A stretch of DNA of 64,000 nucleotides from Lentisphaera marina (GTDB lineage: Bacteria; Verrucomicrobiota; Lentisphaeria; Lentisphaerales; Lentisphaeraceae): the NCBI RefSeq assembly GCF_028745505.1, contig NZ_JAQZZL010000002.1:744001-808000 (forward strand), given 5' to 3'. Below the pieces are notes generated by a model. It did not search any database and was not told the origin of the DNA. It saw only the letters and a program-made list of their open reading frames with translations. Numbering within the stretch: the first letter of the stretch is position 1; each line of letters starts with the position of its first letter. Of this stretch, positions 4,019 to 37,642 are shown in pieces. The position numbers were made by a program, and so were the translations under genes.

Positions 4019-4281
4019 GGCTCTTCACGGAATTGAGTTAAAGGTGCTTTAATCTCTTTCCCCCAGATGCATAGAATAATATTAGCTATCAATATAATTT
4101 TTTAGCATGGTTTTGAGGAATTTGCAAAAATAGAGAGGCTGTTTGAGTAAATAGAAATTTCATAAATAAGTAAAAAATACAATATTTTAGATCTGTTTGA
4201 GGGAAAGATTTCTTCAGTACCACAAAGAATGCTTTGTTTACTTTGTTTGATTTGGAAAGATCAATTTATCCAAGGAAAATA

Positions 4282-5976
4282 ATGAAGACTTTAACAAAAT
4301 CATTCTTAACATTAATGCTCTCGACATCAGCGCTTTTTGGGGCAGCAGGGGATGACCGTCCCGTACACGCCGACCCCGAGGTGGGGTGTCAATTAGATAA
4401 GCAAGAAGCAGCTTACGTCAAAAGTTTTTCAGGTCAGTATAAGATCCCTATGTTTAAGCGTCCTGGTAAAGGCTTTGAAAATGACTGGGCCGAGATTGCT
4501 TCCAAAGAGATTCCAGAATGGATGATTGATGCGAAGTTTGGTATCTATACCCATTGGGGTCTGTACTCTCAGGCTGAGTTTGACGGTAATACTTACATAC
4601 AACACATCTATAATCCGAAAGATCGCAAAGCAATTTCCAAAACAAACAACTTGACTCATTATGATTTTCACCGTCAGAAGTATGGTCCTGCAGAAGAGTT
4701 TGGCTATACAGATTTAGTTAAATCTTTCACTTGCGAAAAATACGATGCCGTAGAATATGTGGATCTAATGATGGAAGCTGGAGCAAAATTTGGTGGCTTA
4801 GGTGTTGTTCACCACGAGGGTTACCTAATGTGGGATTCCGATGTGGGGCGTTGGAATGCAGGGAAGACAGGACCTAAGCGCGATCTTTTCGGTGAGTTTA
4901 TGAAAGCTGCCGATACTAAAGATTTCAAAACTTGTGCAACTTTTCACCATGCGAGGTCATATGATTACGCACTCAAATCACTACGTGTTAAAGGCAAAGA
5001 AGATCAACTCGAAACTATTTTAAATAATGCTGCTTACGATATCAACCAAGATGAATTTAAAGATTTCTTTTTTCCTGCCCACAAATATCCAGTAGAACAA
5101 TTCGCACAAGAATGGCACGACAAGATCATTGAAGTTATGGATAAATATACTCCGGACATGATTTGGTTTGATGGTGTCGCTATTGACAAGCCCAACTCTC
5201 CAGAACATCATGTAGTAGATTTCCTTAAATTCTATTTTAAAAAAGCTGCAGAGCAGGGCAAGCAAGTAACTATTTGCAATAAATTACCTGGCAGTGATAA
5301 GAGTGGGGTTACGCGTTTCAATTTCCCTCAAGGCGTCGGTATTCGCTGTTATGAAAATGGAAGAAATATGCCACCTGATAATGCCGGTTACTGGCTTTGG
5401 GATCGCGCCATTAGCTACCCTTGGTCTTGGGTGAAAGATAAAAACTATAACCTAACTAGTGAATACCATGTACGTAGCTTAGTCGATATTGTCGCTCGTG
5501 GAGGAGTTTTTTTTCTTTCACTTACTCCTAAAGGCAATGGAGAAATTCCCGCTGAAGAAAAGCAGATTTGTCGTGAAATTGGAGCTTGGTTAAAAATTAA
5601 TGGTGAGGCCATCTACTCCACTCGTCGCTGGGCAATTCCTGCCGAGGGCGACGTGAAGCTTAATGCCTATCAATATATTGCTAAGCGTAAAGGCTTTTGG
5701 TACAAGTACATGAAGACCTCTCCACAACAGATTCGCTTTACACAGAGCAAGGATGGCAAAGACCTTTTTGTCATGACCCTAGGATGGCCAAAATCGGGTG
5801 AGATTCTCGTGAAAAACTTAAAAACTAATTCACCACATTTCCCAGAAAAAATTACTTCAGTAAAAATGCTCGGTTCTGATGAAGAAATTCAATTCACACG
5901 CACAAGTGAAGGACTTAAAATTCACTTCCCTTCTCAAAAACCCTGTGACTTTGCCTTCAGTTTTAAAATTAATTAG
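4282..5976 (+). CDS. Secreted GH29 alpha-L-fucosidase-like enzyme, copy 1
   Basis: A 564-aa exported glycoside hydrolase of the GH29 alpha-L-fucosidase type. The start is the ATG at 4282, preceded by AAGGAA; an upstream in-frame ATG at 4234 lacks a ribosome site and would put 16 residues before the signal peptide MKTLTKSFLTLMLSTSALFG. GH29 landmarks are FGIYTHWGLYS, VVHHEGYLMWDS followed by WNAGKTGPKRDLFGEF, FHHARSYDY, and the nucleophile region DMIWFDG with Asp297 as likely nucleophile. A C-terminal beta-sandwich of about 120 residues follows. It should release fucose or fucose-like residues from glycans in the periplasm or outside. A paralogue begins 9 nt downstream. The exact substrate is not known. 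Confidence 0.88.
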   Translation: MKTLTKSFLTLMLSTSALFGAAGDDRPVHADPEVGCQLDKQEAAYVKSFSGQYKIPMFKRPGKGFENDWAEIASKEIPEWMIDAKFGIYTHWGLYSQAEFDGNTYIQHIYNPKDRKAISKTNNLTHYDFHRQKYGPAEEFGYTDLVKSFTCEKYDAVEYVDLMMEAGAKFGGLGVVHHEGYLMWDSDVGRWNAGKTGPKRDLFGEFMKAADTKDFKTCATFHHARSYDYALKSLRVKGKEDQLETILNNAAYDINQDEFKDFFFPAHKYPVEQFAQEWHDKIIEVMDKYTPDMIWFDGVAIDKPNSPEHHVVDFLKFYFKKAAEQGKQVTICNKLPGSDKSGVTRFNFPQGVGIRCYENGRNMPPDNAGYWLWDRAISYPWSWVKDKNYNLTSEYHVRSLVDIVARGGVFFLSLTPKGNGEIPAEEKQICREIGAWLKINGEAIYSTRRWAIPAEGDVKLNAYQYIAKRKGFWYKYMKTSPQQIRFTQSKDGKDLFVMTLGWPKSGEILVKNLKTNSPHFPEKITSVKMLGSDEEIQFTRTSEGLKIHFPSQKPCDFAFSFKIN

Positions 5977-5985
5977 GAAAAAATC

Positions 5986-7740
5986 ATGAAATTCACACAT
6001 AAAATTTGTTTAAACCTCGGTCTTGTCGTGAGCATTTGTGGCGCAGGGAAAAGCGACTTTAAACTTTACCCAGACCTCAATAGAACAGCATTGGGAGAAG
6101 ATGCTCAGAAACGAGTAGCAGAAATGGAAGGGCAAAAATTTAATAAACCTCATTTCCGTATTCCCGATAAAAAATACCGTGAAGCATGGGAGGACTTACG
6201 CCATAAACAGGATCCCGAATGGTTAAAGGACGCCAAATTTGGGATATACACGCATTGGGGTCTATTCTCCATACCAGCTAATCGTGACGCCAGTAACACA
6301 TATGTGCGTTATATGTATAAAGATGAAGTTAGTAACAAGAAAAAAAGTAAAGCGTATAAAAAGGGGGTCAGTTCCTTTCATAAGCAACGTTTTGGCGAAC
6401 CCACCGAATTTGGCTACTCAAATTTTACTGACTTGTTTAAATGCCAAGATTTTAATGGTGCAGAATACGTTGAAATCATGAAAGATGCGGGGGCAAAATT
6501 TGGTGGACTAGGAATTGTTCACCACGATGGTTTCCTCATGTGGGATAGTGAAGTTGTACCTTGGAATGTTGGGAAAATGGGACCCAAACGCGATATCTTT
6601 GGTGAGTTTGTAGAAGCGGCAAAAGAGGAAGATTTCAAGACCTTCGCATCCTTCCATCATGCGCGCAGTTTTGGCTATGCAACTTCCTATTTAGAAGAGT
6701 CCGATTTTACTGAAGAAGAAAAATCTAAACTCGATATCTTTAATCCTAAATATGATTCTTGGTATTTTCCAAAATGGGGAACGGCAAAGGCCGCACAATT
6801 TGATGATTTATGGCTTAAAAAGGTACGAGAAGTTATTGATAAATATCAACCCGACAGTCTTTGGTTCGACGGTTTATCTCCTCAAGAACATTGCACCGAA
6901 GCAAGTCATGTGAACTTCATGAATCATTACTATAAAATGGGCGAAGAGCAGGGCAAGGATTTAGCAGTATTTAACAAACTTCCTGGGAGCGGTTTTTTTA
7001 ATTTCCCTCAAGGGGTGGGTATAAAATGTTATGAGGGTGGTCGCGATATGCCTCCTTATACCACGGGCTCATTTTTAATTGACAAAGCTATCAGTTACCC
7101 TTGGTCTTATATCGAAAATAAAACTTATAAATTTGGTCCTGATTATCATGTGGACGCAATTATCGATGTTACTGCACGTGGTGGTTATTATCTCATGTCA
7201 TTGACCCCTAAAGCATCAGGTGAAATTCCTCAAAAAGAAAAGGAGATTTGTGCAGAAATAGGTAAGTGGATGCGCATCAATGGAGAGGCTATCTATGGTA
7301 CGCGTGAGTGGGTGATTCCTACAGAAGGCCCACTGAATACATTTATGTATAAACCTGAAAAAGGGGTCGTATACTGGGATTACCGTGCACCCAATAAGCA
7401 AGGTGAAATACGCTTCACAAAAAAAGGTGACGATATGTATGCGGTTTTCTTAGATTGGTGTGATGATAAGTTCGATATCCGATCACTGGGGAAACAGATG
7501 ATTCCAAATGCCGAGATCGCAAGTGTAGAACTTCTTGGTCATAAGGGTGAACTCAGTTATGAACAAACTCCCGAAGCCCTAGTGATTCAAAGTCCAAAAG
7601 AAAAACCATGTAAATATGCCTATGCGTTCAAAATAAAACTAAAAGGCGATGTTGGTAATGCCATGGTGGCTAATAAACCAGTGAAGATGGAAGAGAATAC
7701 CATGCTTTATGACGACATAGAGCAGAAATACTCCAAGTAA
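5986..7740 (+). CDS. Secreted GH29 alpha-L-fucosidase-like enzyme, copy 2
   Basis: A 584-aa paralogue of the preceding gene, sharing the whole GH29 layout: KFGIYTHWGLFS, IVHHDGFLMWDS, WNVGKMGPKRDIFGEF, FHHARSFGYA and the nucleophile motif SLWFDG with Asp295. The signal peptide is about 1-20 (MKFTHKICLNLGLVVSICGA). Translation starts 9 nt after the upstream stop with AGGAAAA as ribosome site, so the two form an operon. At the general acid-side motif copy 1 has HHEGY and copy 2 HHDGF; this and many differences across the barrel suggest different linkage or aglycone preference rather than a recent duplication. A basic tail of about 30 residues follows the beta-sandwich. Confidence 0.88.
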   Translation: MKFTHKICLNLGLVVSICGAGKSDFKLYPDLNRTALGEDAQKRVAEMEGQKFNKPHFRIPDKKYREAWEDLRHKQDPEWLKDAKFGIYTHWGLFSIPANRDASNTYVRYMYKDEVSNKKKSKAYKKGVSSFHKQRFGEPTEFGYSNFTDLFKCQDFNGAEYVEIMKDAGAKFGGLGIVHHDGFLMWDSEVVPWNVGKMGPKRDIFGEFVEAAKEEDFKTFASFHHARSFGYATSYLEESDFTEEEKSKLDIFNPKYDSWYFPKWGTAKAAQFDDLWLKKVREVIDKYQPDSLWFDGLSPQEHCTEASHVNFMNHYYKMGEEQGKDLAVFNKLPGSGFFNFPQGVGIKCYEGGRDMPPYTTGSFLIDKAISYPWSYIENKTYKFGPDYHVDAIIDVTARGGYYLMSLTPKASGEIPQKEKEICAEIGKWMRINGEAIYGTREWVIPTEGPLNTFMYKPEKGVVYWDYRAPNKQGEIRFTKKGDDMYAVFLDWCDDKFDIRSLGKQMIPNAEIASVELLGHKGELSYEQTPEALVIQSPKEKPCKYAYAFKIKLKGDVGNAMVANKPVKMEENTMLYDDIEQKYSK

Positions 7741-8866: not shown

Positions 8867-9187
8867 TTAATCTAAATTCACGTAATAATCCCAGTCAATC
8901 CAGGTTTTACATCTAGATTTTAAATTCTTATCTAATTCATTTATGTTCTTTTTGAAATCTTCAGGGTCAGTGGTGTTAGATGAAATATCTATATACCATT
9001 TATAGTATTGACCATCAATATCTTCACCGCCGTAATTTTTGAATATTTCAATTTTCAAATTTTGTAGAAAAAAAATTGTTGGGTAATGAAAAAAAGTAGA
9101 CTTTGTTTGTATACGTAATATTTTTTTTATGGATTGACTTAAATTTCTTTCTGAAATTTTATCACAAAATATAACGGCAGTTTTCAT
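8867..9187 (-). CDS. Hypothetical protein, 106 aa
   Basis: Not recognised. A 106-aa, likely cytosolic protein (MKTAVIFCDKISERNLSQSI...) with a strong ribosome site AAGGAGGAGACG directly before the ATG, which argues that it is real. The C-terminal half is rich in Lys, Asp and aromatic residues (GQYYKWYIDIS; TWIDWDYYVNLD). The opening MKTAVIFCD with a hydrophobic strand followed by a basic helix may be a small alpha/beta fold. It is the last gene of a tight minus-strand cluster, 10 nt after the previous stop. Its AT-rich composition matches the surrounding accessory DNA. Confidence 0.65.
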   Translation of the reverse strand: MKTAVIFCDKISERNLSQSIKKILRIQTKSTFFHYPTIFFLQNLKIEIFKNYGGEDIDGQYYKWYIDISSNTTDPEDFKKNINELDKNLKSRCKTWIDWDYYVNLD

Positions 9188-9197
9188 CGTCTCCTCC

Positions 9198-9527
9198 TTA
9201 GGCTACTTTCGTTTTTAAATGACTATAATTGAAGAGCTTCGATGGGCGATGATGAGCCGCTTTCATATCCTCATTACGCAGCTTACCAATAAAAGACTTT
9301 GTGTTTACATTCATTTCGTCACCAAAATTAATGCCATCGAAATCATAGTGGTAGAGAAATTTAAGAATGTCATGATCAATAACTTCGGGTTCACCTTTGG
9401 GTTTAAAGGAATTTTCATGTGAACCTAATGTAATGAAGATACGTCGTGCTCCAAATGATTTTACTTTTTCTATATCTGTAGATATGAGTTTAGTTCGGAG
9501 ATGATTTTTAAGAAATTCTTGAGACAT
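9198..9527 (-). CDS. Hypothetical protein, 109 aa
   Basis: Not recognised. The 109-aa product (MSQEFLKNHLRTKLISTDIE...) has no signal peptide or membrane span. Visible features are KVKSFGARRIFITLGSHEN near residues 21-39, which could be a beta strand with a turn, and a His-rich segment AAHHRPSKLFNYSH near the end. Its ATG lies 2 nt beyond the stop codon of a 43-codon upstream ORF and has only a weak ribosome site of its own, so translation is probably coupled. A shorter ORF on the opposite strand here has no ribosome site and is judged a shadow. Confidence 0.55.
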   Translation of the reverse strand: MSQEFLKNHLRTKLISTDIEKVKSFGARRIFITLGSHENSFKPKGEPEVIDHDILKFLYHYDFDGINFGDEMNVNTKSFIGKLRNEDMKAAHHRPSKLFNYSHLKTKVA

Positions 9528-10571: not shown

Positions 10572-11806
10572 ATGAAAGTTGAAAACATGTTCAAAAATAG
10601 TGGCTTTTTGCCAACTATTGAAGATTTATTTCCTGCACCCCAAATTAAAGAAGATTTTGTAGCTTGGCCATTTATTGATAATTTATTTGATTTCACAAAG
10701 CTTATTGGAAAAAAAACTTAGCCAAACATGTATCTCAAAAGTAAAATCTAAAAAAGTTGCAGTGATCGGCGCTGGTGTTGGCGGTATGTGCGCAGCGTAC
10801 GAATTAAAGAAATGCGGAATCGATGTTGAGGTAATAGAAGCGGGAAACAGGATAGGAGGGCGATGCTGGTCCAAACGTTTTACAAACAGAGATGGTTCAC
10901 TGTCAGATGTGTTCGCTGAATTAGGAGCGATGAGAATTCCACTTTCACAAAAAACTTTTTGGTCTTGTGTAAATGATTTGAAGTCTGCTTTAAGTTTCCC
11001 TGATCCTGGAACAGTAAGAACAAAGTTCTTTTAAGATAATAAATCATATGACTGGGAATCTGGGCAAGAAGCCCCCGGTTCATTTGGTGAAATTGCTAAA
11101 GATTTCGGGATATGGCTTAATTATTTAAAGGGAATCTTGTATAAACCTTTTGCTGAATGACTGCAATTGCCAAATAAAAAAGACTTATTAGAACTCACCC
11201 GTGTGTGGCAAGTCGAATTTATTGATAAATATAAAGGTTGTAGTTTTTTTAAAGCTGTTTCCGATGTTATGACTGATTGGGGAACTGAAGATTTTGGAGC
11301 TTTGGGAGTAGGGTTTGGGGACTTTGGTTCGCTCTATCCAGTTAATATGTTAGAATTAGCTCGAATTATCCTAATGCAGTGGGAGGAGAATCAGCAAATG
11401 TTTCCTTCTGGGGTGGAGGTACTTCCTAATGCATTTTATACCCATTCAATTGAAATTAATGGCGAGAATATTAATTCTTTGGAAAAATCTAAAGCTGTAA
11501 AATTTAATACAAGAGTTAAAAACATTTCATATAGAAATAGTTTAACAAGCCCTTGGTAACTTTTGAAAGTGGTGAAAAACGTATGTATGATGCAGTTGTT
11601 GTAGCGACTACGACAAGGGCTATGTCGTATATGGGTTTGATTATGCCTATGAGAGGTGTAAAGCAATCTATTATGCCCGACAGTGTTAAAGTCGCGATTA
11701 GAAATTTACATATTACTAGTTCATCAAAAAAGTTTATAAGAACTCGTTCAAAATTTTGGTTAGCTACTGAAACTAACAAAAACTCATTAGAGTTTAGCTT
11801 GTTCTG
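10572..11806 (+). pseudogene. Decayed flavin amine oxidase (tryptophan monooxygenase-like)
   Basis: Remains of one gene for an FAD-dependent amine oxidase. A good start (AAGGAG, ATG 10572) gives MKVENMFKNSGFLPTIEDLF..., then the frame is lost at a run of eight A near 10711. In the next frame the dinucleotide-binding motif KVAVIGAGVGGMCAAYEL and IEAGNRIGGRCWS are clear. Two in-frame stops follow (TAA 11032, TGA 11158), with homologous-looking sequence continuing through both (WESGQEAPGSFGEIAKDF; LLELTRVWQVEFIDKYKG). A second shift occurs near 11555, after which EKRMYDAVVVATTTRAM continues. The protein stops at 11807, short of the C-terminal FAD-contacting part expected for the family. Two shifts, two stops and a truncation make it non-functional. 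It ends convergently, 3 nt from the regulator gene. Confidence 0.85.
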
Positions 11807-11809
11807 AAA

Positions 11810-14800
11810 TTATATACCCCAGCCTCCATTCCAGCGAGTTTTTGAACTCTCAAGAAACCTAGACCAATCTTCTTTAGATCTAGATAGGGGGTAGGGGGTA
11901 GGGGCAATAGGCTGATCAGAAGACCATAAAATATGAAATAGTCCATCTTTGCCAACTTGAGCAATATGTGAATGTCTCCAAATATGTTGATTGTCTTCAT
12001 CTATATACGCAATGCCGCCTGGACCATAATAAGATAGGCCCTTGATGGCTTCGGCTATTTTATGAGCTTCAAAGGATTGACATTTTTGTATAGCTTTGGC
12101 CCAAAGTTGAACGCCAACATAGGCGGACTCCATATAACCAGCAACTCTTTGCTGTTTGCCATATTTCAGTTTAAATTCTTGTAGAAAATCATTATTACTA
12201 TACTCATCGTTATTTTGGAAATAAGTGAAAATACCATATAAGCCTTCGCAATGTTCTAAGGGGATGTGATTGATCTCATTATCAGATAGAACGAGAGAGA
12301 TAATTATAGTATTATTGTTTTGATTCATGTTTGATTCATGATATTGTTTTAAAAAGGCTTTATTACTTTCTACAGAGGCTAAAGTTAATATGATTACCTC
12401 AGGTTTTTTATCTTGTATTTGTTCAATACATCTATGGAAATCAGTACTGCCAATGGCTAGATAATCTTCGCCTAATAAAACACTATCATGAACTGTAATA
12501 GCTTCTTTTAATATCTCATTAGTTACGACAGGATATATGTAATCGGAGCCCACAAAATAAAATGAATGCGGCTTTATTTTATCAAAGAGCCAATCAATGA
12601 TTGGTAAAGCTTGAAGGTTGGAGGTTGGGCCTGTGTAAATAATGTTTTTTGATGACTCCAAGCCTTCGTAATGAAATGGATAAATAAGAAGCTTGTTACT
12701 TTGTTCAATAATAGGTTTTACTTGTTTACGAGTTGAAGACGTAGAACACCCAAATACAGAAGTGATATTATGATTCTTAACTATGTTTTTCGCTTGCTCT
12801 GCAAAAACATATTCATTTGATTGACCATCAAAGATCTCGTATGTGATTTTATGATCCAGTAAACCACCATTTTTATTAATTTCATCAAAAGCCACGATGT
12901 AAGATTTGATTACACCTTCTTCATGTTCTTTTAAAATACCACTTGCAGAATGTAGAAATGCGACCTTGTGTTGTTTTTCTAATGTGCTCTTTGTGTCCGG
13001 TCTTTTGACTTCATTGAAGTTTTGAATGCTAGTTTTGAAGGCTTTGGATTCTTGGTAGTTGATTTGTTTTGGTACGGTGTTTAAAGAATGAGTACATTGC
13101 TTGAGGTAAAATTGATATTTATCAATACTATTTTTATCCTCCGGGCTTAGTGTATCAGTAACAAGTTCTTTAGCTTTAGTTAGGTAATTGAAAGATAGTT
13201 CGAAGCGTTGATTTACCGCATAAATTTCTGTTAGTTCCATATATATTTGAAGTTTATTTTCAGAAAGCTCAGTTGTGTGTAAAGCTTTTTCTAAATATTG
13301 TGTAGCTTTGGCCGGAAGGTCAAGCATTTTTAATAAGACGCCCTTCATATAGTATAGGGCATACAACTGAGAATTATCTGGAAGAGCTAAAGCAATATCA
13401 ATCTGATTAAGTGCCTCACAGTAGTCCTGTTTTTCATAAAGAATTCTGGCATGTTTTTTGATTTCATGAAGAGCTTTTTGAGTTTGATTAGCTTTTCTCA
13501 AATGTAGGGTGAGTTTAGCTTGGTCTAACTCTTTATAGAATGATGCCGCAGATTCATGAATTTCAATTTTGATTTCTTCTGGTATATTTTGATATATACT
13601 TTGCCTTATTAAGTCATGCTTAAATTCATAATTTGATGAATCTTTAGAGATGAAGAAGTTGTATTGAATGAGCTTAGATAAATCTAAATTGGCTATTTGG
13701 CTTATTTGTTCCACATCACTCAGCTTGAACTCATGCCCCAAGGCGGATGCATAAAATAAAAAATTCACAGCTTGTTCATCTAGTTTAGATAACTGTTGTC
13801 GAACGAGAGATGTTAATGATTGCGGAAGAGAATTATCTTTGTACTTGAATCCCATGTCTAATAAATATCTAAAAAATAGTGGGTTGCCATTAGACAATTT
13901 TATATATTTATCTTGAACCGCACTAGGAACTGAGAGTGTATTACTACCAACTTTGATTAGTTCATGTTTATTTAGTGGAGAGAGGTTAAAAAGCTCCAAA
14001 GGAGTATTTAATACTGTGTTATTCCAGATTTGATACAAGGGACTTTGAATCAAGCGACTCGAAAGTGTGAGTATTAATGGATAAAGTCTGATTTCATGAG
14101 TGAAACTTTGGATTGTGCTTATTATTTCACTAGAGGCCCAGTGTATATCCTCAAGAACAATATTTATAGGTCGATCGATCTGTTTGATTAAGGTGAAAAC
14201 CAACTCAATTTCATTTATTATTGTTTCTTTATATTTTCTAGACTTATCAATGTCTGTATTTTGACCAAAAAGTGTAAAAAGTGTTTTTTTTGTTTTTTTA
14301 TCTAAGCCAGTATTCAATGAAAAATACTCTAAACAGTCTGGATATATCCTCATTGAATTTTGGCTATAATTAAGGTTTGTGCATTGGGGATAGTGTGAGT
14401 TAGCTGCATGCTTGGAATTTATTATTTCAATAAATTCACGAACTAAATCTTGCAGTAATTGTCTCTTGCTAGTAACGCCATCATATATGGGGAGAGTGAA
14501 GTTGATGAAATTATACTTTTCGGCATAGCCAATCAGTTTACTAATAAAGTGAGTTTTTCCTATTCCCGGTTCACCTTGCACGAAAATGACACTCCCTCTT
14601 TTTTCGTCTTTGACACGAAAAATACTTGAACAAGCACGGTGTATTTGTTCATCTCTACTCAAGGGAGGTGTTTTCTTATCTGGGTTGGTGCTGCTTAGTG
14701 AGCTGTTTTTTAGTTCATCTATACTGACTTTTAGGATTGACGCAATATCTTGAGCAGTGCGATAATATATTTTATTACCTGCTTCCGCTCTCTTTAGTGT

Positions 14801-14926
14801 TGATACTGAAAGGTAACACCCCATTTCTTGACTCTTAGAAGAGAACATATCACGACTTAAGCATTGTTTTAAACGGAGTGCTTTTATCGTTTCTCCCTTT
14901 AAAATAACCCTTCCATCAAAATCCAT
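11810..14926 (-). CDS. XRE-HTH/STAND ATPase/TPR/AmiC-like sensor regulator
   Basis: A 1038-aa multidomain protein. Residues about 14-72 form an XRE-like helix-turn-helix (LRLKQCLSRDMF...SVSTLKRAEAG...AQDIASILKVSIDEL). Residues about 90-420 are an AAA_16/STAND ATPase with Walker A GEPGIGKT (118-125) and Walker B IVLEDIHWAS. Residues about 470-620 look like TPR-type helical repeats (YCEALNQIDIALALP; AKATQYLEKALHTTE). From about 650 to the end is a periplasmic-binding-protein fold of the amide/urea type (VFGCSTSSTRKQVKPIIE, LLIYPFHYEGLESS, NIIYTGPTSNLQALPIIDWL, ILWSSDQPIAPTPYP), close in pattern to AmiC and UrtA. There is no signal peptide, so this ligand domain should be cytosolic, as in AmiC. 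I infer a ligand-gated, ATP-dependent transcription regulator. The decayed amine oxidase is its convergent neighbour. Confidence 0.88.
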   Translation of the reverse strand: MDFDGRVILKGETIKALRLKQCLSRDMFSSKSQEMGCYLSVSTLKRAEAGNKIYYRTAQDIASILKVSIDELKNSSLSSTNPDKKTPPLSRDEQIHRACSSIFRVKDEKRGSVIFVQGEPGIGKTHFISKLIGYAEKYNFINFTLPIYDGVTSKRQLLQDLVREFIEIINSKHAANSHYPQCTNLNYSQNSMRIYPDCLEYFSLNTGLDKKTKKTLFTLFGQNTDIDKSRKYKETIINEIELVFTLIKQIDRPINIVLEDIHWASSEIISTIQSFTHEIRLYPLILTLSSRLIQSPLYQIWNNTVLNTPLELFNLSPLNKHELIKVGSNTLSVPSAVQDKYIKLSNGNPLFFRYLLDMGFKYKDNSLPQSLTSLVRQQLSKLDEQAVNFLFYASALGHEFKLSDVEQISQIANLDLSKLIQYNFFISKDSSNYEFKHDLIRQSIYQNIPEEIKIEIHESAASFYKELDQAKLTLHLRKANQTQKALHEIKKHARILYEKQDYCEALNQIDIALALPDNSQLYALYYMKGVLLKMLDLPAKATQYLEKALHTTELSENKLQIYMELTEIYAVNQRFELSFNYLTKAKELVTDTLSPEDKNSIDKYQFYLKQCTHSLNTVPKQINYQESKAFKTSIQNFNEVKRPDTKSTLEKQHKVAFLHSASGILKEHEEGVIKSYIVAFDEINKNGGLLDHKITYEIFDGQSNEYVFAEQAKNIVKNHNITSVFGCSTSSTRKQVKPIIEQSNKLLIYPFHYEGLESSKNIIYTGPTSNLQALPIIDWLFDKIKPHSFYFVGSDYIYPVVTNEILKEAITVHDSVLLGEDYLAIGSTDFHRCIEQIQDKKPEVIILTLASVESNKAFLKQYHESNMNQNNNTIIISLVLSDNEINHIPLEHCEGLYGIFTYFQNNDEYSNNDFLQEFKLKYGKQQRVAGYMESAYVGVQLWAKAIQKCQSFEAHKIAEAIKGLSYYGPGGIAYIDEDNQHIWRHSHIAQVGKDGLFHILWSSDQPIAPTPYPLSRSKEDWSRFLESSKTRWNGGWGI

Positions 14927-15108
14927 ATAAACTAAACCTTAAATAAATAAATAAACAGTCATGACCAAATGTTCTTGTCAAACATTTCTGTATAAAAACT
15001 GTATTAAGTTAATAAGATGTACTCTAAAAGGAATATTTTCCTATTTTTTAAAGATATTTTATGATGTTTTTAGTTGTTTTTTAATATGGACGTTTGAATT
15101 TAGGCTTT

Positions 15109-15795
15109 TTAAGGAGCTTGTGTATAAAATTCCGTTTGTTTAAATGGCTTAGAACTTAATTTAAGCCAACCAGAAGATGAGTATGAAAGATTTCTTTTAC
15201 ACATGATGTTATCAAAAAGATTTTTGTAATGAACCCAATATTTTTTTTGTGTATTTTGCGTGATTTCAATTAGTAAAACATTATGATTTATATCATCAAA
15301 AGCTTCCATCACACAATAAGCATTATTGCTATCTGTGTTGCCATATAAAGAGTTCTTATTGATATTAAATATCATAATTTCATCACTCCTATTATAATTA
15401 TTCAGATTATACCTAAACCTATTTAAAGCTTTAGAATAATTAAGCTCATCATATTGTTTGTATTCAGAAACTAAGAGGTTAATTGAGTCGTTAATTTCAT
15501 TAAAAGAAATTTCTTTGTATGAATTAATTTCGGTACTAATTTTTTTTAATTTAAACTTTGATTTATCATAGATATCAAGAGTGACAGACTCTAAATAGTA
15601 ATTAAGACTATTGCCACGTTTACATCTGTCATTAATTTCATCTTCAAGTATTTTAATTTTTTCGTAGTCCAAGGAATTTAAAAGGTGCCTGTGCTCATTG
15701 TCATTATAGTCGATTACCAAAAGCTCACCTGGCGTATTTTGTGTAACACAACCATTAACCAATATAATTAACAATGCCCCAATAAGATATTTCAT
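15109..15795 (-). CDS. Hypothetical lipoprotein, 228 aa
   Basis: A 228-aa exported lipoprotein of unknown role. The start is the ATG at 15795, which has a strong TGGAGG site; an upstream in-frame ATG at 15843 would place 16 charged residues before the signal sequence. The signal peptide MKYLIGALLIILVNGC ends in a lipobox-like LVNG-C at residue 16. The rest is charged and helical (DNEHRHLLNSLDYEKIKILEDEINDRC), with a strand-rich C-terminal part (YCVMEAFDDINHNVLLIEITQ). No family is recognised. Codon use and AT richness match the accessory neighbourhood. Confidence 0.7.
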   Translation of the reverse strand: MKYLIGALLIILVNGCVTQNTPGELLVIDYNDNEHRHLLNSLDYEKIKILEDEINDRCKRGNSLNYYLESVTLDIYDKSKFKLKKISTEINSYKEISFNEINDSINLLVSEYKQYDELNYSKALNRFRYNLNNYNRSDEIMIFNINKNSLYGNTDSNNAYCVMEAFDDINHNVLLIEITQNTQKKYWVHYKNLFDNIMCKRNLSYSSSGWLKLSSKPFKQTEFYTQAP

Positions 15796-15843
15796 TATAA
15801 ACCTCCATTTATTTGGTTTCACTTTTAGTAGTTTTTCTTTCAT

Positions 15844-22020: not shown

Positions 22021-22902
22021 TTACTCAATATTGAGTAGTTTATTATTGTTTATGTGTTGAGAGCCTTTCAAATATTTTAAAAGACAGAGAGCGAATATTA
22101 TTGTCAGCAGGACTTCCTCAGGCTCAGGGACCAAAGCTGAAGTCTCAATTAGTTGATTCACATTCATTGTTCCGATATCTACCGCAAAAAGTAGATCATT
22201 GTAATCCCTGTCACCACCATTATAAAGATCTTCAAAACCCAAAAATAAATAGGAAGAATTTTCTATTGCAAAGCTAACTACATGCTGAATACCATCGGGA
22301 TTTACGCTCTCATCAGTTGAATAAACATAGGAACCGCCATTGGCACCATTAGCAATAAGGAAAAAGTCCAGTTCTGTACCTTCGCTAAAAGTTCCTAGCT
22401 CAACAAAATCACCTTGAGCTAATGGAGTATTGTTATTCCTATTAACCGGATTATCGGGATTAAGGTAATCACTGCTCACGCTAGCGTCGGGAAAAATTAA
22501 TTGTGGGTTTCCAGTTTGAATACCTCCAGCTTCAGTATTAAAACCCAGTGTATTATGATAACCAGCTCCCTCACCAACGAAATACACTCTTAGATCTGCA
22601 TCATAGCTTAAATTTAATTTGTTGGGGTCTAGAGCAATACTATCCAGAGTCTCATTATTTAGACTCATTCTCTCGCCTAGATTATTCTGAACAATTTGAT
22701 TGATTTCTGGGAGATAATTATTTTGAAAATCAACTGAAGCCTCGTCAGATGCAGCGATGTAGACTTCGCCAACAATGTCTAGCCCAAATGGTCGTTCACT
22801 CGCTTGATAAGGGGATAGGCTAGCATCTGCATAGGTGTTTTGTATAAAGTACATCAATACTATACAAAGAGCTTTAGTTAGTGATTTCTTTCCATTTCTC
22901 AT
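22021..22902 (-). CDS. DUF4114 PEP-CTERM surface protein, copy 1
   Basis: A 293-aa paralogue of the following gene: signal peptide about 1-25 (MRNGKKSLTKALCIVLMYFIQNTYA), a shared N-terminal segment LSPYQASERPFGLDIVGEVYIAAS, then the DUF4114 domain (DFFLIANGANGGSYVYSTDE, FLGFEDLYNGGDRDYNDLLFAVDIG), and a PEP-CTERM tail VPEPEE with a hydrophobic span (VLLTIIFALCLLKYL). Compared with copy 2 it carries a short insertion (about 10 residues) before the second DUF4114 strand. Its ATG overlaps the exosortase stop codon by 4 nt (ATGA), which ties substrate to enzyme. Likely an extracellular adhesin or matrix protein. Confidence 0.9.
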   Translation of the reverse strand: MRNGKKSLTKALCIVLMYFIQNTYADASLSPYQASERPFGLDIVGEVYIAASDEASVDFQNNYLPEINQIVQNNLGERMSLNNETLDSIALDPNKLNLSYDADLRVYFVGEGAGYHNTLGFNTEAGGIQTGNPQLIFPDASVSSDYLNPDNPVNRNNNTPLAQGDFVELGTFSEGTELDFFLIANGANGGSYVYSTDESVNPDGIQHVVSFAIENSSYLFLGFEDLYNGGDRDYNDLLFAVDIGTMNVNQLIETSALVPEPEEVLLTIIFALCLLKYLKGSQHINNNKLLNIE

Positions 22903-24545
22903 TGTTGAACTCCTTTATCTATCAGTGTTTTGTTGAGTGCTAATTCATTATTTGATTTTTCTGCCATAAAATATTTTAAGAAGTTGATTATTTGCTCTTT
23001 ATCTTGGGCTTTAACTCGGCTTAATACCCAATGACCCTGTTGGCCACGCAAGCGTAAATTGATATCTTCTTTGAGAACCTTGAGCATATCCGTATAAAAT
23101 TCTCCATTTTGAGAAAACCAATACGCGTAATAATACTTTTCTTTCCCTTTTTCAGCTCTCACCAACTTGACTTGATGTCCTTTTGGGAACTGGCGAATTT
23201 CGGAGTCAACTATATCCCAATTAGCCCCTTTCAGGCAGTACTCTGGGGAATGCATACTATGACGTTCACTACTGTGGACAGAGACCATGAGCTGAACATC
23301 TTTATTACCTGATGTATAATTTCGACAGATAACATTACCATTCTCAAAAAAATTAATTAAATAAGCAGGGACATCACGTTTCTCTCCCGTCCATGGCCCA
23401 ATGACATAGCTGGGGTAAGCTTGTTTGAATTCAGATTTTTCACTTGTTAAAACAAGACTAAAAGCCGCGTAAATGACAATCAATAAGTAAGAATGTTTAA
23501 TTCGACTCAAAGCTTCAAACCTAGGCACATCCACTTTTTCTTTAGGTCGAATAGAATAATAAATAGCAAACATCAATACCGAGATTAATAATTTTATCAC
23601 TAATGGATCAACCTGATAACTAGACCCCAAAGGCATGTAGGTCGCTATTACATAAGTACTCGCAGGAAAAGCACAAGATAAAACAACAAATGCAGGAATG
23701 AATAAGTAAAGGTTCTTTAAGCCTTTGTACTGGATTAAGTACGCGGATAGCAAGAATAAAAATGCCATCATCCACAAGGTGTTCATATCAAAAAATAATG
23801 CCGTAATAATCATGACTTGAACATGGTTAAAAGCAATCAGCCCCCCATTGATGAACGAGGATTTGTAAGTCAAGTTTTTTGACGTAAGCCTTACTAAATA
23901 GAGAGCCAAAATAAAGAATACCCATGAAAATTTATCTAAAGGTGAATCTAACCAAGCATCAAGAGTATCAGAGAAAAAAGGATAAAATAACGTCAAATAG
24001 CACAGTGCAATCACAAGTTCCTTTCTAAAGCCCTGTTTTTTCTCTTGAGTATCATTACTACTAAGCTCTTTGAGACCCATAAAAAAGTGAATGCTCATCA
24101 TGCTAACAAAAAACCAGATCAAGCCCACAACACTATGTAAAGCACCTTCAATGGGCGCATCATTATAAATTCCCAAGATAATTAGAGTAGAAATTCTGAG
24201 GGAATTAAAGCAGAGTGCCATTAATACGAGAGTGAGTAAATAATAGAAGCAATTCTTTAAACAAATTTTACGCGACATAACGCATAAAATTGTACCAAAA
24301 GTTAAGATGTACTTCAAAGTGGAAGAGCCACTGCAAGCAGGGACTACATCAAACTTTATTCCATGTGAGCTAATTATCGTCCCACTAAGGCTTATATCCT
24401 CAATGAATAATTGCAGGAACGCATAAGAAAAATTACTGGAGAATTGACGGAGAGGAAAGTTAAGTATAGGCTCGCATATGCTTAGTAGCAAATACATTAA
24501 GGCACCAGATGACAAGGCACCAACAACTTGTTTCTTCCTAGTCAT
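22899..24545 (-). CDS. Exosortase fused to EpsI domain
   Basis: A 548-aa polytopic membrane enzyme that processes PEP-CTERM proteins. The exosortase part (about 1-160) has the catalytic triad Cys71 (VVPACSGSSTLKYI), Arg117 (CFNSLRISTLII) and His137 (GALHSVVGLIWF). A central membrane block with further spans follows (about 175-375). The C-terminal soluble part (about 385-530) is EpsI/DUF3485-like, with VHSSERHSMHSPEYCLKGANW as its core motif. Exosortase-EpsI fusions are known in other bacteria. It starts immediately after the TPR gene stop codon (TGA-ATG) and overlaps the first substrate gene, forming a dedicated cassette. Confidence 0.92.
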   Translation of the reverse strand: MTRKKQVVGALSSGALMYLLLSICEPILNFPLRQFSSNFSYAFLQLFIEDISLSGTIISSHGIKFDVVPACSGSSTLKYILTFGTILCVMSRKICLKNCFYYLLTLVLMALCFNSLRISTLIILGIYNDAPIEGALHSVVGLIWFFVSMMSIHFFMGLKELSSNDTQEKKQGFRKELVIALCYLTLFYPFFSDTLDAWLDSPLDKFSWVFFILALYLVRLTSKNLTYKSSFINGGLIAFNHVQVMIITALFFDMNTLWMMAFLFLLSAYLIQYKGLKNLYLFIPAFVVLSCAFPASTYVIATYMPLGSSYQVDPLVIKLLISVLMFAIYYSIRPKEKVDVPRFEALSRIKHSYLLIVIYAAFSLVLTSEKSEFKQAYPSYVIGPWTGEKRDVPAYLINFFENGNVICRNYTSGNKDVQLMVSVHSSERHSMHSPEYCLKGANWDIVDSEIRQFPKGHQVKLVRAEKGKEKYYYAYWFSQNGEFYTDMLKVLKEDINLRLRGQQGHWVLSRVKAQDKEQIINFLKYFMAEKSNNELALNKTLIDKGVQQ

Positions 24546-27437
24546 TCAATGCACCCCTTCGATTTGAGCTATATAAGTCTCTATTTTTTGCATCGATTCA
24601 GAACTCACTTGCCCAAAGCCTTCTTGAACACTTTTTAGGCAAGCCCTATAGCTAAATAGTGCTTCCTGATTGCGTTTTAAATGGCGATAACTTTCAGCTA
24701 AGTTGTAAAGTGTTTTTGGATCTTTATTAGCTAAATCAATCGAATTTTTAGGGGCCAAAATCTTTACCGTTTTTTCATACAATTCATTGGCGTTTAAAAT
24801 AGATGTATAAGTATGCAGTATTCTGTAATCATAGGGAGATAGATCATGTGCTTCTTTAGCACTTATCAGAGCAGCTTCATACTGGCCGTCCAGAAATAAA
24901 TTCCATGCAATATTATTGTGTATTTCAGCCTTTTGTTTACTGAATGGTAGGTGGAATTCATATAATTTGGCAGCCTCACTAAATAAATCAGTTGATTCAC
25001 AGAGTAGGGCGAGTCGAAGAATATCGTTGGCATGTTTTTTACTCGTATGAAACTGCTTTTCAAGTAAATCAAAATTCCCCAAGTGTATCTGAGCTTCAGC
25101 CCAATAGTAAAATGCGGAAGCATTGTTTGTTTTGTATTCATCCAAGGATTCGACTACGGAGTCATATTTTTTTTCATATAGTTGAACCGCTACCTCAGCG
25201 AGAACCATTTTTGTGTCTTTAGCTATATCTTGATTCACCAGCAAAAGCTTTTTCGCCTTATTTAGGTCTTGCTTCTTCAAAGCCTCTTTAACTGAAAAAT
25301 AACAGATTAAAGAAGAACTATTTTCGAGCAGGTCATGATCTTGAATATATTCATTAGCGAATTCGTATTGTCCCAAGCCAATATAACACTCGGCTAATAG
25401 TATTTTTTCTCTTCGCATGGAACATAGGTCCGCTTGGTGTTCAAAGAGGATGATTGCTTGCTTCCATTTACCCTCAAGCATTAATGCTTTTATATTTAGC
25501 AGTGTTATTTGTTTATGAGAACGGTAGTGAAGTGGTAGTTGAGCAATTAAAGCTAGTGCCTCTTTGCCTCTTTTATCGATGAGTTCGAAGTTGATTTTTA
25601 AGATCTCAAAATTAACAGAAACAAGCTCTTTATTCAATAATTCTTCATAGTGCTTTCGTGCTAAAGCAAGTTCATTTTTATGTAAATGAATTAGGCAAAT
25701 ACCAAGCTTAGCCTCATCCTCAAAATCTTTATTCTGCTTAAGTTGATCAAATAATTCATAAGCCTCATTAGTATTACCTTCGTACAAATAACGATAGGCC
25801 AGACTCAGACCATTCGTGCCCTGCTTGACCCAGAATTGTTTAGCCTCTTCATTTATATCTTTTAGTTCAATATTTTGCAGCAATAAAAAACTCAGACTTT
25901 CAGTTCTTTTACTACCTAGTTTACCTTCCTTCAAATCCTTTAAAATGACCTCGTGCCTTTGATGAATAAAAGCTTCATATAGACTCATTTCCTGTAGAGT
26001 AAAAAATGGACTCTCATGCAACTTTAATAATTCTTCTGCTTTTTCAAAATCTTTTTTCTGGAGATACAAAGTCATTAAATCATTAACAGATTTCTTATCT
26101 TTGGGAAAATACTTAACTTTAAGTTCCGCAAGTCGAAGTAGGGTATCATTCTTATTATTTAGCGCATATATAGAAGCTAGCTGATCGAAGAAAGCTTTGC
26201 TGTATACTCCCTTTCTAAATTGTCTTTTGATTATTTGTTCCGCAAGGACGTGCTGACTCTCTTTGATTAATGAACTTGCCCAAAGTGACGTTAATAATGG
26301 ACTCGACTTCAGCACGGGATCACTCAAGCCATTGGCTAAGTCAATCAGCTTCTTATCTTCAGCCCTAGAATGATAATATTGAATTAATAACAAGCGACTC
26401 AAGGCTGTCTTAGGTAAAAGACGCTTAATTTTTTCTTCCGTCAAAGCTGAATCCATTTGGGGCTTTGTACAAATCTGATAAAGTAAACTTTCACCTTCCA
26501 ATCTAGGATCATCAGACTTCAACTTGTCAAGCAAACTCGCTAGCTCAATAAAATTCTTTTGGGCAAAATAAATATTGCCCGCAAGTAGGCGACGATTAAT
26601 CATTAAATTATCATCATTCTCTAAATTCAGCGTATCAATTTGACTTAAAATTTTTAAACTTTCGTCATACTGATTCATCAAAAATTTTGCATAGGCACCC
26701 TCAATCAAAACATTTGCTGATTGCGGGTATCGCATTCTAGATTCCACAAGTACAGACTCTGCAGCATCATAACGACCTGCAATCATGTAGAGTCGGCAAT
26801 AACTTACAAGTCCTTTTTCTTCCAGGATTCCATTGCGATAACATTGAGCTAAAAACTCTATGGCGCCCTGGTAGTCATTTTTTATGATATAGCAATTGGC
26901 AATTCTTTGTGCCACTTTTGCATTTGGAAAATCTTTGAAAAAATATTCCCATAAATCCCAAGCTTTGTCAAGTTGTTTAAACTGAATGAGTAAGTCACCG
27001 TGAGTTAAGACTTTTTTCACGGGATCTTCGAGTTCATTGGCCATTTGAATTAGCCTTTCTTGTTCCCCGTAGTTGGATTGAATCTTGAGTTTATTTAGAC
27101 TATAGATTCTCAATAGAACTTCTCTATTCTTCAGGCCGTTTTCCCAGGCCTTTTCTGCATAGGCAACACTATCACTTCTTTTTGATAGGGTTTGTGCAAT
27201 TGAACTCGTTTCCCACAGTAAAGATTTATCTTTGGGTTTCAGTGACACCGCCTTTACAATAGCCTTGTAGGCTTGATGATAATGACCCGATTCTTTAAAA
27301 CGATTAAAATTATTTATGTGATCTTCATAAGTGAGTGAAACCTTAACCTCTTTTGGGCTAAATTTCTTTTGAATAAAATAAAAACTAGCAGAGCTTACTA
27401 CTAGTAATGAGACAAATAACAATAATTTTTTCAGCAT
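24546..27437 (-). CDS. TPR-repeat protein of exosortase cassette
   Basis: A 963-aa protein with an N-terminal membrane anchor or signal (MLKKLLLFVSLLVVSSASFYFIQ) and about 20 TPR-like helical pairs for the rest (YHQAYKAIVKAVSLKPKDKS; YDAAESVLVESRMRYPQSANV; YEAALISAKEAHDLSPYDYR). It should be periplasmic. There is no lipobox Cys, unlike the PrsT-type TPR lipoprotein often found with PEP-CTERM systems, although size and context match that role. It is the first gene of the operon TPR, exosortase-EpsI, DUF4114, DUF4114, with no gap to the exosortase gene. A scaffold for export or polysaccharide assembly is the probable job, by analogy. Confidence 0.85.
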   Translation of the reverse strand: MLKKLLLFVSLLVVSSASFYFIQKKFSPKEVKVSLTYEDHINNFNRFKESGHYHQAYKAIVKAVSLKPKDKSLLWETSSIAQTLSKRSDSVAYAEKAWENGLKNREVLLRIYSLNKLKIQSNYGEQERLIQMANELEDPVKKVLTHGDLLIQFKQLDKAWDLWEYFFKDFPNAKVAQRIANCYIIKNDYQGAIEFLAQCYRNGILEEKGLVSYCRLYMIAGRYDAAESVLVESRMRYPQSANVLIEGAYAKFLMNQYDESLKILSQIDTLNLENDDNLMINRRLLAGNIYFAQKNFIELASLLDKLKSDDPRLEGESLLYQICTKPQMDSALTEEKIKRLLPKTALSRLLLIQYYHSRAEDKKLIDLANGLSDPVLKSSPLLTSLWASSLIKESQHVLAEQIIKRQFRKGVYSKAFFDQLASIYALNNKNDTLLRLAELKVKYFPKDKKSVNDLMTLYLQKKDFEKAEELLKLHESPFFTLQEMSLYEAFIHQRHEVILKDLKEGKLGSKRTESLSFLLLQNIELKDINEEAKQFWVKQGTNGLSLAYRYLYEGNTNEAYELFDQLKQNKDFEDEAKLGICLIHLHKNELALARKHYEELLNKELVSVNFEILKINFELIDKRGKEALALIAQLPLHYRSHKQITLLNIKALMLEGKWKQAIILFEHQADLCSMRREKILLAECYIGLGQYEFANEYIQDHDLLENSSSLICYFSVKEALKKQDLNKAKKLLLVNQDIAKDTKMVLAEVAVQLYEKKYDSVVESLDEYKTNNASAFYYWAEAQIHLGNFDLLEKQFHTSKKHANDILRLALLCESTDLFSEAAKLYEFHLPFSKQKAEIHNNIAWNLFLDGQYEAALISAKEAHDLSPYDYRILHTYTSILNANELYEKTVKILAPKNSIDLANKDPKTLYNLAESYRHLKRNQEALFSYRACLKSVQEGFGQVSSESMQKIETYIAQIEGVH

Positions 27438-35760: not shown

Positions 35761-37642
35761 GTGCGCCTGAGAGCGCACACAATCAATGAGGTGAAAGTCC
35801 TCATCAACAAAGGCTGATTATGTTGTAGTCGAACCTAACTGCGTTGTCGTGAGGCGGGGTGGAGAGCAAGGCAAGACGAAACAGCAGTCCGTAGGATGAC
35901 GAACTCGATTCGGCTTTATAGTACTGGCGAGCCTGCGTGCGCTTGGCGAAGCTTGGAACAGAAAGAAAAAAAAAAAGGTAGTTCTGAAAATCCTCTATGC
36001 TGAATATCAGCGAGTAGCAAAGCAGTAGAGGAAGTCTATAGGGTGGTTGGAGACGGAATGCCGTGAAGGTTGTGTGACGTTAATCAGGGAGATCTGCATG
36101 TGCAGTGCAATAAGGCATGCAGAAGTCAGAGCTCTCATAGTAGTAAAGAAGGCGGTGAAAGCCGTCAGAGCGAAGGAGAGTAGGAAGATGAAACTGAGAA
36201 GAAAAGAATGAAGGAATGAAACAATTGTCAGAGACGACTAAACATTCATGGGAGCAGTTAGGGCGCACCGAAGAGATTCGTGCGTGGGCCTCAACTTCAG
36301 TCTGGACAGATCAGATGCTGGGAACTCTTGAAACAAGAGTTGAAGGTAGGAAATGGTATAGCTTAATAGATAAAGTAGCGCGAGAAGTGAACCTTGTAGA
36401 AGCCTGGGAATCTGTTCGTGCAAACGGCGGGAGTCACGGGGTGGATATGGTGAGCTTGGATCGTTATGAATCAGAGTTAGAGCACAATACTGAACAATTG
36501 ATGAAGCAATTACAGGCGGGGACTTACCTTCCGCAATGCGTTCGCAGGGTAGAGATCCCAAAAGCCGACGGTAAAACGCGTGCATTGGGAATACCAACCG
36601 TGCGAGATAGAGTTGTTCAGACTGCGCTCAAGAATGTTATTGAACCGATATATGATGCGGAATTTTCTGCACAGAGTTTTGGTTTTCGTCCGCAACGGGG
36701 ATGTAAAGACGCGCTTAGGCGGGTTCATCATCTACTTACGCAAGGACAGCTCTATGTCGTTGATGCGGACATTCAAAGTTACTTTGATATGATACCGCAC
36801 GACAAACTCATGGCACGAGTCAAAGAGAAAATAAGTGATGGCAAGGTCCTTGACCTTATAGAAGCTTTCCTCAAAGCGGGGATATTCGACGGAATCAAGG
36901 AGTGGGAACCCGAGAAAGGGACTCCGCAAGGAGGCGTAATTAGCCCACTGCTCGCCAATATTTATCTCGATGAATTCGACCATAGGATGAGAGACGCTGG
37001 TTTTGAAATAGTGAGGTATGCGGATGACTTTCTGGTGATGTGCGATAATGCAAAATCGGCTAAACGGGGCTTGCGCAAGATAAAGCGTTGGATGAAGGCC
37101 CATGGTCTGAATCTTCACCCCGATAAAACCCGAATTGCCGACATGAATCAGCAAGATGAGTACTTTGAATTTCTAGGTTATCACTTTGAGCGTTCGAAAA
37201 GGACGGGCAGAATAAATAGGTGGCCCCGAAAACAGAGTATGGCTAAAATTAAGGATACTATACGCAAGCGTACGAGGCGTTGTCATTGGCAATCCATAGA
37301 AGAAATTATTAAAGCCCTCAGGCCTAGTCTCAAAGGTTGGTATGAGTACTTCAAGCATTCCAATCGTTGGACCATGCTCGAAGTTGATGCTTTCTTTCGA
37401 AGAAGGTTGCGCAGTATCATCGCTAAGTACAACCGTAAGAGAGGTACTCATCGGATTATCGATAACAAGAAATATACCAAGAAATACTTTGTAGAACTAG
37501 GGTTCTTTTCACTGGAAGAGGCCTGGTTACTGGAATCTCAGTCTCTTCGGAGTAAGCATTGACCGGAGAGCCGTATGCGGGAGATCCGCACGTACGGTTC
37601 GGAAGGAGGGGAGGCTCCGCAAGGAGCTTTCCCTACCCTTAT
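35761..37642 (+). mobile_element. Group II intron
   Basis: A complete-looking bacterial group II intron of about 1.88 kb. The 5' end is GTGCGCCTGAG. A structured domain I follows over 35761-36200, and an ORF encodes the maturase. Domain V is at about 37568-37600 (GAGCCGTATGCGG...CCGCACGTACGGTTC), and a domain VI stem GGGAGGCTCCGCAAGGAGC leads to a 3' end near 37642 (...CCTTAT). It sits 4 nt after a palindromic repeat, and terminator-like hairpins are the usual targets of class C introns. The 3' border is estimated to within a few bases. Confidence 0.85.
36216..37562 (+). CDS. ltrA: Group II intron reverse transcriptase/maturase
   Basis: A 448-aa intron-encoded protein. The reverse-transcriptase palm has KADGKTRALGIPTVRDRVVQ, AQSFGFRPQRGCKDAL, DADIQSYFDMI, GTPQGGVISPLLANIYLDEFD and the catalytic RYADDF. 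The maturase X domain is about 350-430 (LRPSLKGWYEYFKHSN). There is no HNH endonuclease domain, consistent with insertion at single-stranded hairpin sites. It mediates splicing and retrotransposition of its own intron. The ORF is intact, and AAGGA directly precedes the ATG. Domain V starts right after the stop codon. Confidence 0.96.
   Translation: MKQLSETTKHSWEQLGRTEEIRAWASTSVWTDQMLGTLETRVEGRKWYSLIDKVAREVNLVEAWESVRANGGSHGVDMVSLDRYESELEHNTEQLMKQLQAGTYLPQCVRRVEIPKADGKTRALGIPTVRDRVVQTALKNVIEPIYDAEFSAQSFGFRPQRGCKDALRRVHHLLTQGQLYVVDADIQSYFDMIPHDKLMARVKEKISDGKVLDLIEAFLKAGIFDGIKEWEPEKGTPQGGVISPLLANIYLDEFDHRMRDAGFEIVRYADDFLVMCDNAKSAKRGLRKIKRWMKAHGLNLHPDKTRIADMNQQDEYFEFLGYHFERSKRTGRINRWPRKQSMAKIKDTIRKRTRRCHWQSIEEIIKALRPSLKGWYEYFKHSNRWTMLEVDAFFRRRLRSIIAKYNRKRGTHRIIDNKKYTKKYFVELGFFSLEEAWLLESQSLRSKH

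Follow-up and report, generated by a model that had tools for sequence, protein, structure and literature searches.

The locus described here raises the question of what is done by a protein that carries a helix-turn-helix (HTH) head, a STAND ATPase core, TPR-like helices, and a periplasmic-binding-protein (PBP) domain in one chain, and to which kind of ligand it responds. The gene lies in the window, that is, the whole 64,000-nucleotide stretch of Lentisphaera marina DNA that was analysed (Table 1). An earlier note, made from the sequence alone, had proposed this domain order without knowing a family name for it; all four parts proved to be present in that order, and a literature search likewise found no description of it in a single chain, which is not proof of absence. 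Each of the parts is already known, and it is their combination for which no precedent was found. On the evidence set out below, we consider it likely that the protein is a cytosolic one-protein STAND transcription factor, in which the PBP domain serves as the sensor of a ligand other than urea.

Table 1 Features of the regulator gene and its surroundings (positions are those of the window).
Feature	Position	Strand	Basis
HTH-STAND-TPR-PBP regulator, 1038 aa	11810..14926	(-)	intact ORF; full-length orthologues in G001 and G002; purifying selection
XRE-type HTH, residues 11-72, effector end	14711..14896	(-)	sub-threshold HTH_3, 5 proteins in register; AlphaFold helices
STAND NOD core, residues 90-465	13532..14659	(-)	AAA_16; fold 6mfv/8bob/1z6t; motifs invariant versus cyclase-type STANDs
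TPR-like helical repeats, residues 469-616	13079..13522	(-)	helix pairs in models; Pfam TPR very weak
Flexible linker, about residues 617-650	12977..13078	(-)	pLDDT below 50 for 614-648
UrtA/AmiC-type PBP (type I) domain, residues 651-1015, proposed sensor	11882..12976	(-)	Peripla_BP_5; PDB; Foldseek
C-terminal tail W..FL..K..W.G.W, residues 1016-1038	11813..11881	(-)	common to chemoreceptor-linked binding proteins, partly AmiC
Lipoprotein resembling phytochelatin synthase without catalytic Cys	15109..15843	(-)	upstream neighbour; adjacent or near in 4/4 regulator loci
13-base element ACAACTAAAAACA	15065..15077	(-)	between lipoprotein and regulator; in 3/3 orthologous intergenic regions
Remnant of tryptophan-2-monooxygenase-like FAD oxidase	10572..11831	(+)	convergent with regulator; intact in G001

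At the N-terminus, the Pfam HTH_3 profile matched residues 14–72 with 20.4 bits against a curated cut-off of 23. The two orthologues and a paralogue show the match over the same residues, each of these proteins singly remaining below the cut-off, and it also falls on the matching stretch of a fifth, independent protein; moreover, two AlphaFold models display the five-helix pattern of the HTH_3/Cro-C1 fold characteristic of XRE-type regulators, bearing out the HTH that had been placed near these residues. Elsewhere in the same genome (C2, about 2.136 Mb; L002:450–1716), the gene after that of an H-NOX (haem-NO-binding) protein encodes an HNOBA-like protein, which ends in the same XRE-type HTH and is possibly an NO-responsive transcription factor. 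The HTH type of the regulator thus recurs at the C-terminus of a protein encoded next to an H-NOX NO sensor, which marks it as a reused output module. Further related HTH matches were seen at L011 and L013.

The following core has the hallmarks of a STAND protein. The Walker A (GEPGIGKT, residues 118–125) and Walker B (IVLEDIHWA, within residues 254–264, with the ED pair at 259–260) sequences recognised in the earlier note are present in a P-loop nucleotide-binding domain, where the Pfam AAA_16 match spans residues 90–284, and are accompanied by the STAND motifs SSR (289–291) and GNPLF (347–351). The latter, a GxP motif, together with the fold matches, reveals a NOD with its helical and winged-helix parts, and all nucleotide-binding and STAND residues are invariant in comparison with cyclase-type STANDs. 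When the N-terminal 640 residues were searched with Foldseek, PH0952 (6mfv) was the closest STAND protein, with MalT (8bob) and APAF1 within the top four. The helical repeats noticed earlier appear in the AlphaFold models as TPR-like helix pairs, accompanied by very weak Pfam TPR matches (E 0.3–2). The PBP domain is joined to this part through a disordered linker, and the model, whose interdomain arrangement is of low confidence (pTM 0.47), gives no evident coupling of the PBP domain to the NOD. Neither a signal peptide nor a transmembrane segment was found in the protein, in agreement with the cytosolic placement first proposed.

The assignment of the C-terminal domain is supported by profile, sequence, and fold. 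Peripla_BP_5 matched residues 654–1015 with an E value of 2.7e-103 (346 bits against a gathering threshold of 27), this being its sole match in the genome; comparison with PDB sequences retrieved 8tg1, 7s6f, 8hic, and AmiC (E 3e-83 to 4e-43); and Foldseek gave TMt values of 0.95 to the urea-binding protein 8tg1 and 0.91 to AmiC, all consistent with a type I PBP fold. The AmiC/UrtA likeness reported in the earlier note is therefore upheld, and the three sequence blocks quoted there are genuine pocket and tail motifs of the family. Two details need correction: the domain begins at about residue 651 rather than at 640, and it had been called the effector end, whereas in STAND terms the role of effector falls to the HTH and that of sensor to the PBP domain.

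A tail of the same pattern was also found in stand-alone binding proteins (L029, L032–L035), and some tail-bearing stand-alone proteins have dCache-HAMP-MCP chemoreceptors as neighbours (L059, L060); at L034, the partial neighbour is a dCache-HAMP protein, and L029 lies near a dCache-HAMP-GAF protein. The tail-bearing protein at L006, which comes from a genome of the same family as that of the window, adjoins an uncharacterised membrane protein. Because the nearest stand-alone proteins with this tail adjoin chemoreceptors, the sensor domain probably derives from a lineage of signalling proteins and not of transport proteins. In the phylogenetic tree, the fused PBP domains form a clade of their own on a long stem, the sister group of which is not resolved. 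At another locus, in a sister genus (G004; L057:5283–8738), an UrtA-like stand-alone gene directly follows that of a 673-aa multi-pass membrane protein, which has no Pfam match and whose C-terminal half resembles, by eye, a pentameric ligand-gated channel.

The regulator gene is intact and conserved. Its ORF starts with ATG and contains no internal stop, and the complete domain order is found at full length in two congeners with 69% (G001) and 60% (G002) identity; the architecture is kept across species and looks functional. One of the two congeners also encodes a full-length, diverged paralogue (35% identity), and a genome of a sister genus carries a decayed copy interrupted by stops. Apart from the same genus, the full-length architecture was absent from 198 genomes of the class and 388 genomes of the phylum, the order of the window being represented by six genomes; it was also absent from the plasmids and viral contigs searched and from one GTDB species scan, which may omit close relatives of the window. 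The absence beyond the phylum is based on the GTDB scan and the plasmids. What the class and phylum genomes, the plasmids, and the GTDB scan yielded was confined to binding proteins standing alone, proteins with the STAND part only, or matches to the HTH only. Within the regulator, the HTH (88% and 73% identity to G001 and G002, respectively) and the PBP domain (76% and 71%) are the best conserved parts, the STAND core being less so (63% and 50%). The dN/dS of the PBP domain is 0.07–0.09, with dS near saturation; its low value indicates purifying selection on the gene and a sensor that is not decaying.

In Prochlorococcus UrtA, eight strictly conserved residues are located near urea, four of which form hydrogen bonds with it; the W120A mutation abolishes urea binding, and mutations of Q144 and N246 greatly reduce or abolish it (PMC10392092). 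When these eight site residues (W120, S122, Y141, Q144, E146, Y190, N246, and S274) were mapped through the 8hic alignment, S122, Y141, E146, and Y190 were found to be kept as S730, Y749, E754, and Y796, whereas W120, Q144, N246, and S274 are replaced by S728, H752, S851 (A850 in the 8tg1 alignment), and V879. The replaced positions are identical in all three orthologues. Among the 21 stand-alone relatives examined, W120 and S274 are kept without exception, and Q144 and N246 in 18. The pocket of the paralogue has lost more residues, including Y796, which is changed to D. As judged from these substitutions, the site retains some of the polar base seen in the family's pocket, and the change of W to S should enlarge it.

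The absence of half of the canonical pocket residues might also mean that the PBP domain has lost ligand binding and persists for a structural role or for interaction with proteins; the inducer, be it a protein or a small molecule, would then act on the TPR or arm in the manner of MalT-type STANDs. STANDs with a TPR sensor bind their inducers through the sensor or arm (PMC6468293), and the further degradation of the paralogue pocket is in line with such a loss; however, the PBP domain is better conserved than the STAND core, and its new pocket residues are fixed in three species, which makes this explanation unlikely.

The neighbouring genes bear on what the regulator may sense and control. 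In the window, G001, and G002, a lipoprotein gene lies immediately upstream of the regulator gene and is read in the same direction; at the paralogue locus, two copies are found downstream, likewise on the strand of the regulator. The lipoprotein is diverged and lacks the catalytic Cys segment present in the one canonical phytochelatin-synthase copy of the genome (L073); besides that of the window, the Cys-less lipoproteins at regulator loci are encoded at L053:7446–8132, L054:11996–12775, and L055:3883–4539 and 6652–7476. The 13-base element between the lipoprotein and regulator genes is not enriched in the window when two mismatches are allowed, and it is a weakly suggestive candidate operator.

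On the other side, the oxidase intact in G001 gave as its best match tryptophan 2-monooxygenase (4iv9, E 8e-89), an amide-forming enzyme. Conceivably, the regulator senses the amide product of this adjacent amino-acid monooxygenase, e.g. indole-3-acetamide or another amino-acid-derived amide, and controls the oxidase gene, all the more as amides are bound by the AmiC family and the W120-to-S change could accommodate a side chain. Yet the oxidase is decayed in the window and was not found in G002, which keeps the regulator; it is convergent with the regulator and not co-transcribed. Since the oxidase is broken in one species and missing in another, the lipoprotein, not the oxidase, is the consistent partner; a functional dependence on the oxidase is weakened, and its product appears a quite improbable ligand.

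Several other features were seen in the window. Two small ORFs at 8867–9527 have intact counterparts in G001 (L053:14209–15502), and the 109-aa ORF at 9198–9527 seems to be a truncated relic of a gene of 320 aa that is, by eye, possibly glycoside-hydrolase-like. A group II intron with a reverse transcriptase/maturase occupies 36216–37642 (Rfam RF00029 at 37566–37642), an exosortase gene adjoins that of a TPR protein at 22899–27437, and two alpha-L-fucosidase genes lie side by side at 4234–7740.

Urea, one of the ligands suggested in the earlier note, would make the regulator a cytosolic urea sensor. The nearest solved relatives of the PBP domain are urea-binding proteins, but its NCBIfam UrtA score is 335 against a cut-off of 492.75, and of the eight residues that are invariant in UrtA, four are replaced, including the three whose mutation impairs or abolishes urea binding (PMC10392092); we therefore reject urea on the pocket residues and hold this role to be very improbable. 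Our best guess is that the ligand is probably a larger amide, ureide, or amino-acid-like molecule. As for a STAND immune sensor (Avs-like) instead of a metabolic regulator, the shared ATPase superfamily and the Avs structures among the fold matches are outweighed by the DNA-binding head as effector, the lack of a convincing PADLOC match (mad8, E 0.008 over 29 P-loop residues), the lack of defence neighbours at the locus, and the lack of relatives in viral contigs, with distant matches at most in the viral structure library, so that a defence function is rejected as scarcely credible.

For the preferred cytosolic transcription factor, a course of events may be proposed by analogy with the STAND mechanism model (PMC6468293). 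In the resting state, the arm, TPR, and sensor would contact the NOD core and keep it closed, presumably ADP-bound. Binding of a small polar metabolite in the cleft of the UrtA/AmiC-type domain at the C-terminus would cause this domain to close; this closure would relieve autoinhibition, allowing the NOD to bind ATP and multimerise, and the multimer would gather several XRE-type HTH heads on DNA, altering transcription. The simplest target would be the regulator's own locus, comprising the phytochelatin-synthase-like lipoprotein gene and the regulator itself. More tentatively, and with some doubt, the protein may represent an undescribed class of bacterial STAND transcription factors, in which an entire type I PBP (Venus flytrap) domain from a chemoreceptor-linked binding protein has become cytosolic, acquired a new ligand specificity, drives an NLR-like switch, and works with a pseudoenzyme lipoprotein.

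The opening of STAND switches by inducers is so far understood only in part. A STAND equipped with a textbook domain for binding small molecules, the relatives of which crystallise well, would be tractable to study, with ligand, switch, and DNA output all contained in one polypeptide; it would also be a case of an extracellular nutrient-binding protein turning into an intracellular sensor with altered specificity. The distribution of the regulator is narrow in the collections searched, and there are precedents both for cytosolic sensors of the binding-protein kind (AmiC, NasS) and for TPR-STAND regulators (MalT).

The regulator can be compared with these and with further known systems. STAND guanylate cyclases and SARP-STAND regulators (Paraburkholderia, Rhizobium, and Skermanella) have a homologous AAA_16-TPR core (20–24% identity) but their head is a SAM-cyclase or BTAD domain, and they lack a binding-protein domain. 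MalT and PH0952, STANDs with a TPR sensor, resemble the regulator in the NOD core and TPR, and MalT also binds DNA; MalT has a C-terminal LuxR HTH, whereas the HTH of the regulator is N-terminal and of the XRE type, and a binding-protein sensor is present in addition to what MalT and PH0952 possess. UrtA (8hic, 7s6e, and 8tg1) belongs to the same family and fold as the PBP domain (36–37% identity); unlike UrtA, the regulator is not secreted, is not linked to urea transporter genes or any transporter genes alongside, and differs at half of the urea site. NasS, too, has a PBP fold. In NasS/NasT, a soluble binding-protein-type sensor controls a cytosolic regulator (PMC3795266), but the system consists of two proteins, with an RNA-binding antiterminator and nitrate/nitrite as the ligand. 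AmiC/AmiR of Pseudomonas aeruginosa (1pea and 1qo0) is likewise a case of a cytosolic binding-protein-type sensor, of amide, controlling expression; AmiC shares 25–26% identity, the fold, and a DWS tail with the PBP domain and has Y at the position of UrtA W120, where the regulator has S. No AmiR/ANTAR antiterminator partner was recognised among the ORFs beside the regulator gene. AmiC works on a separate RNA-binding antiterminator, whereas in the regulator one chain unites the sensor with a STAND switch driven by ATP and with a head that binds DNA.
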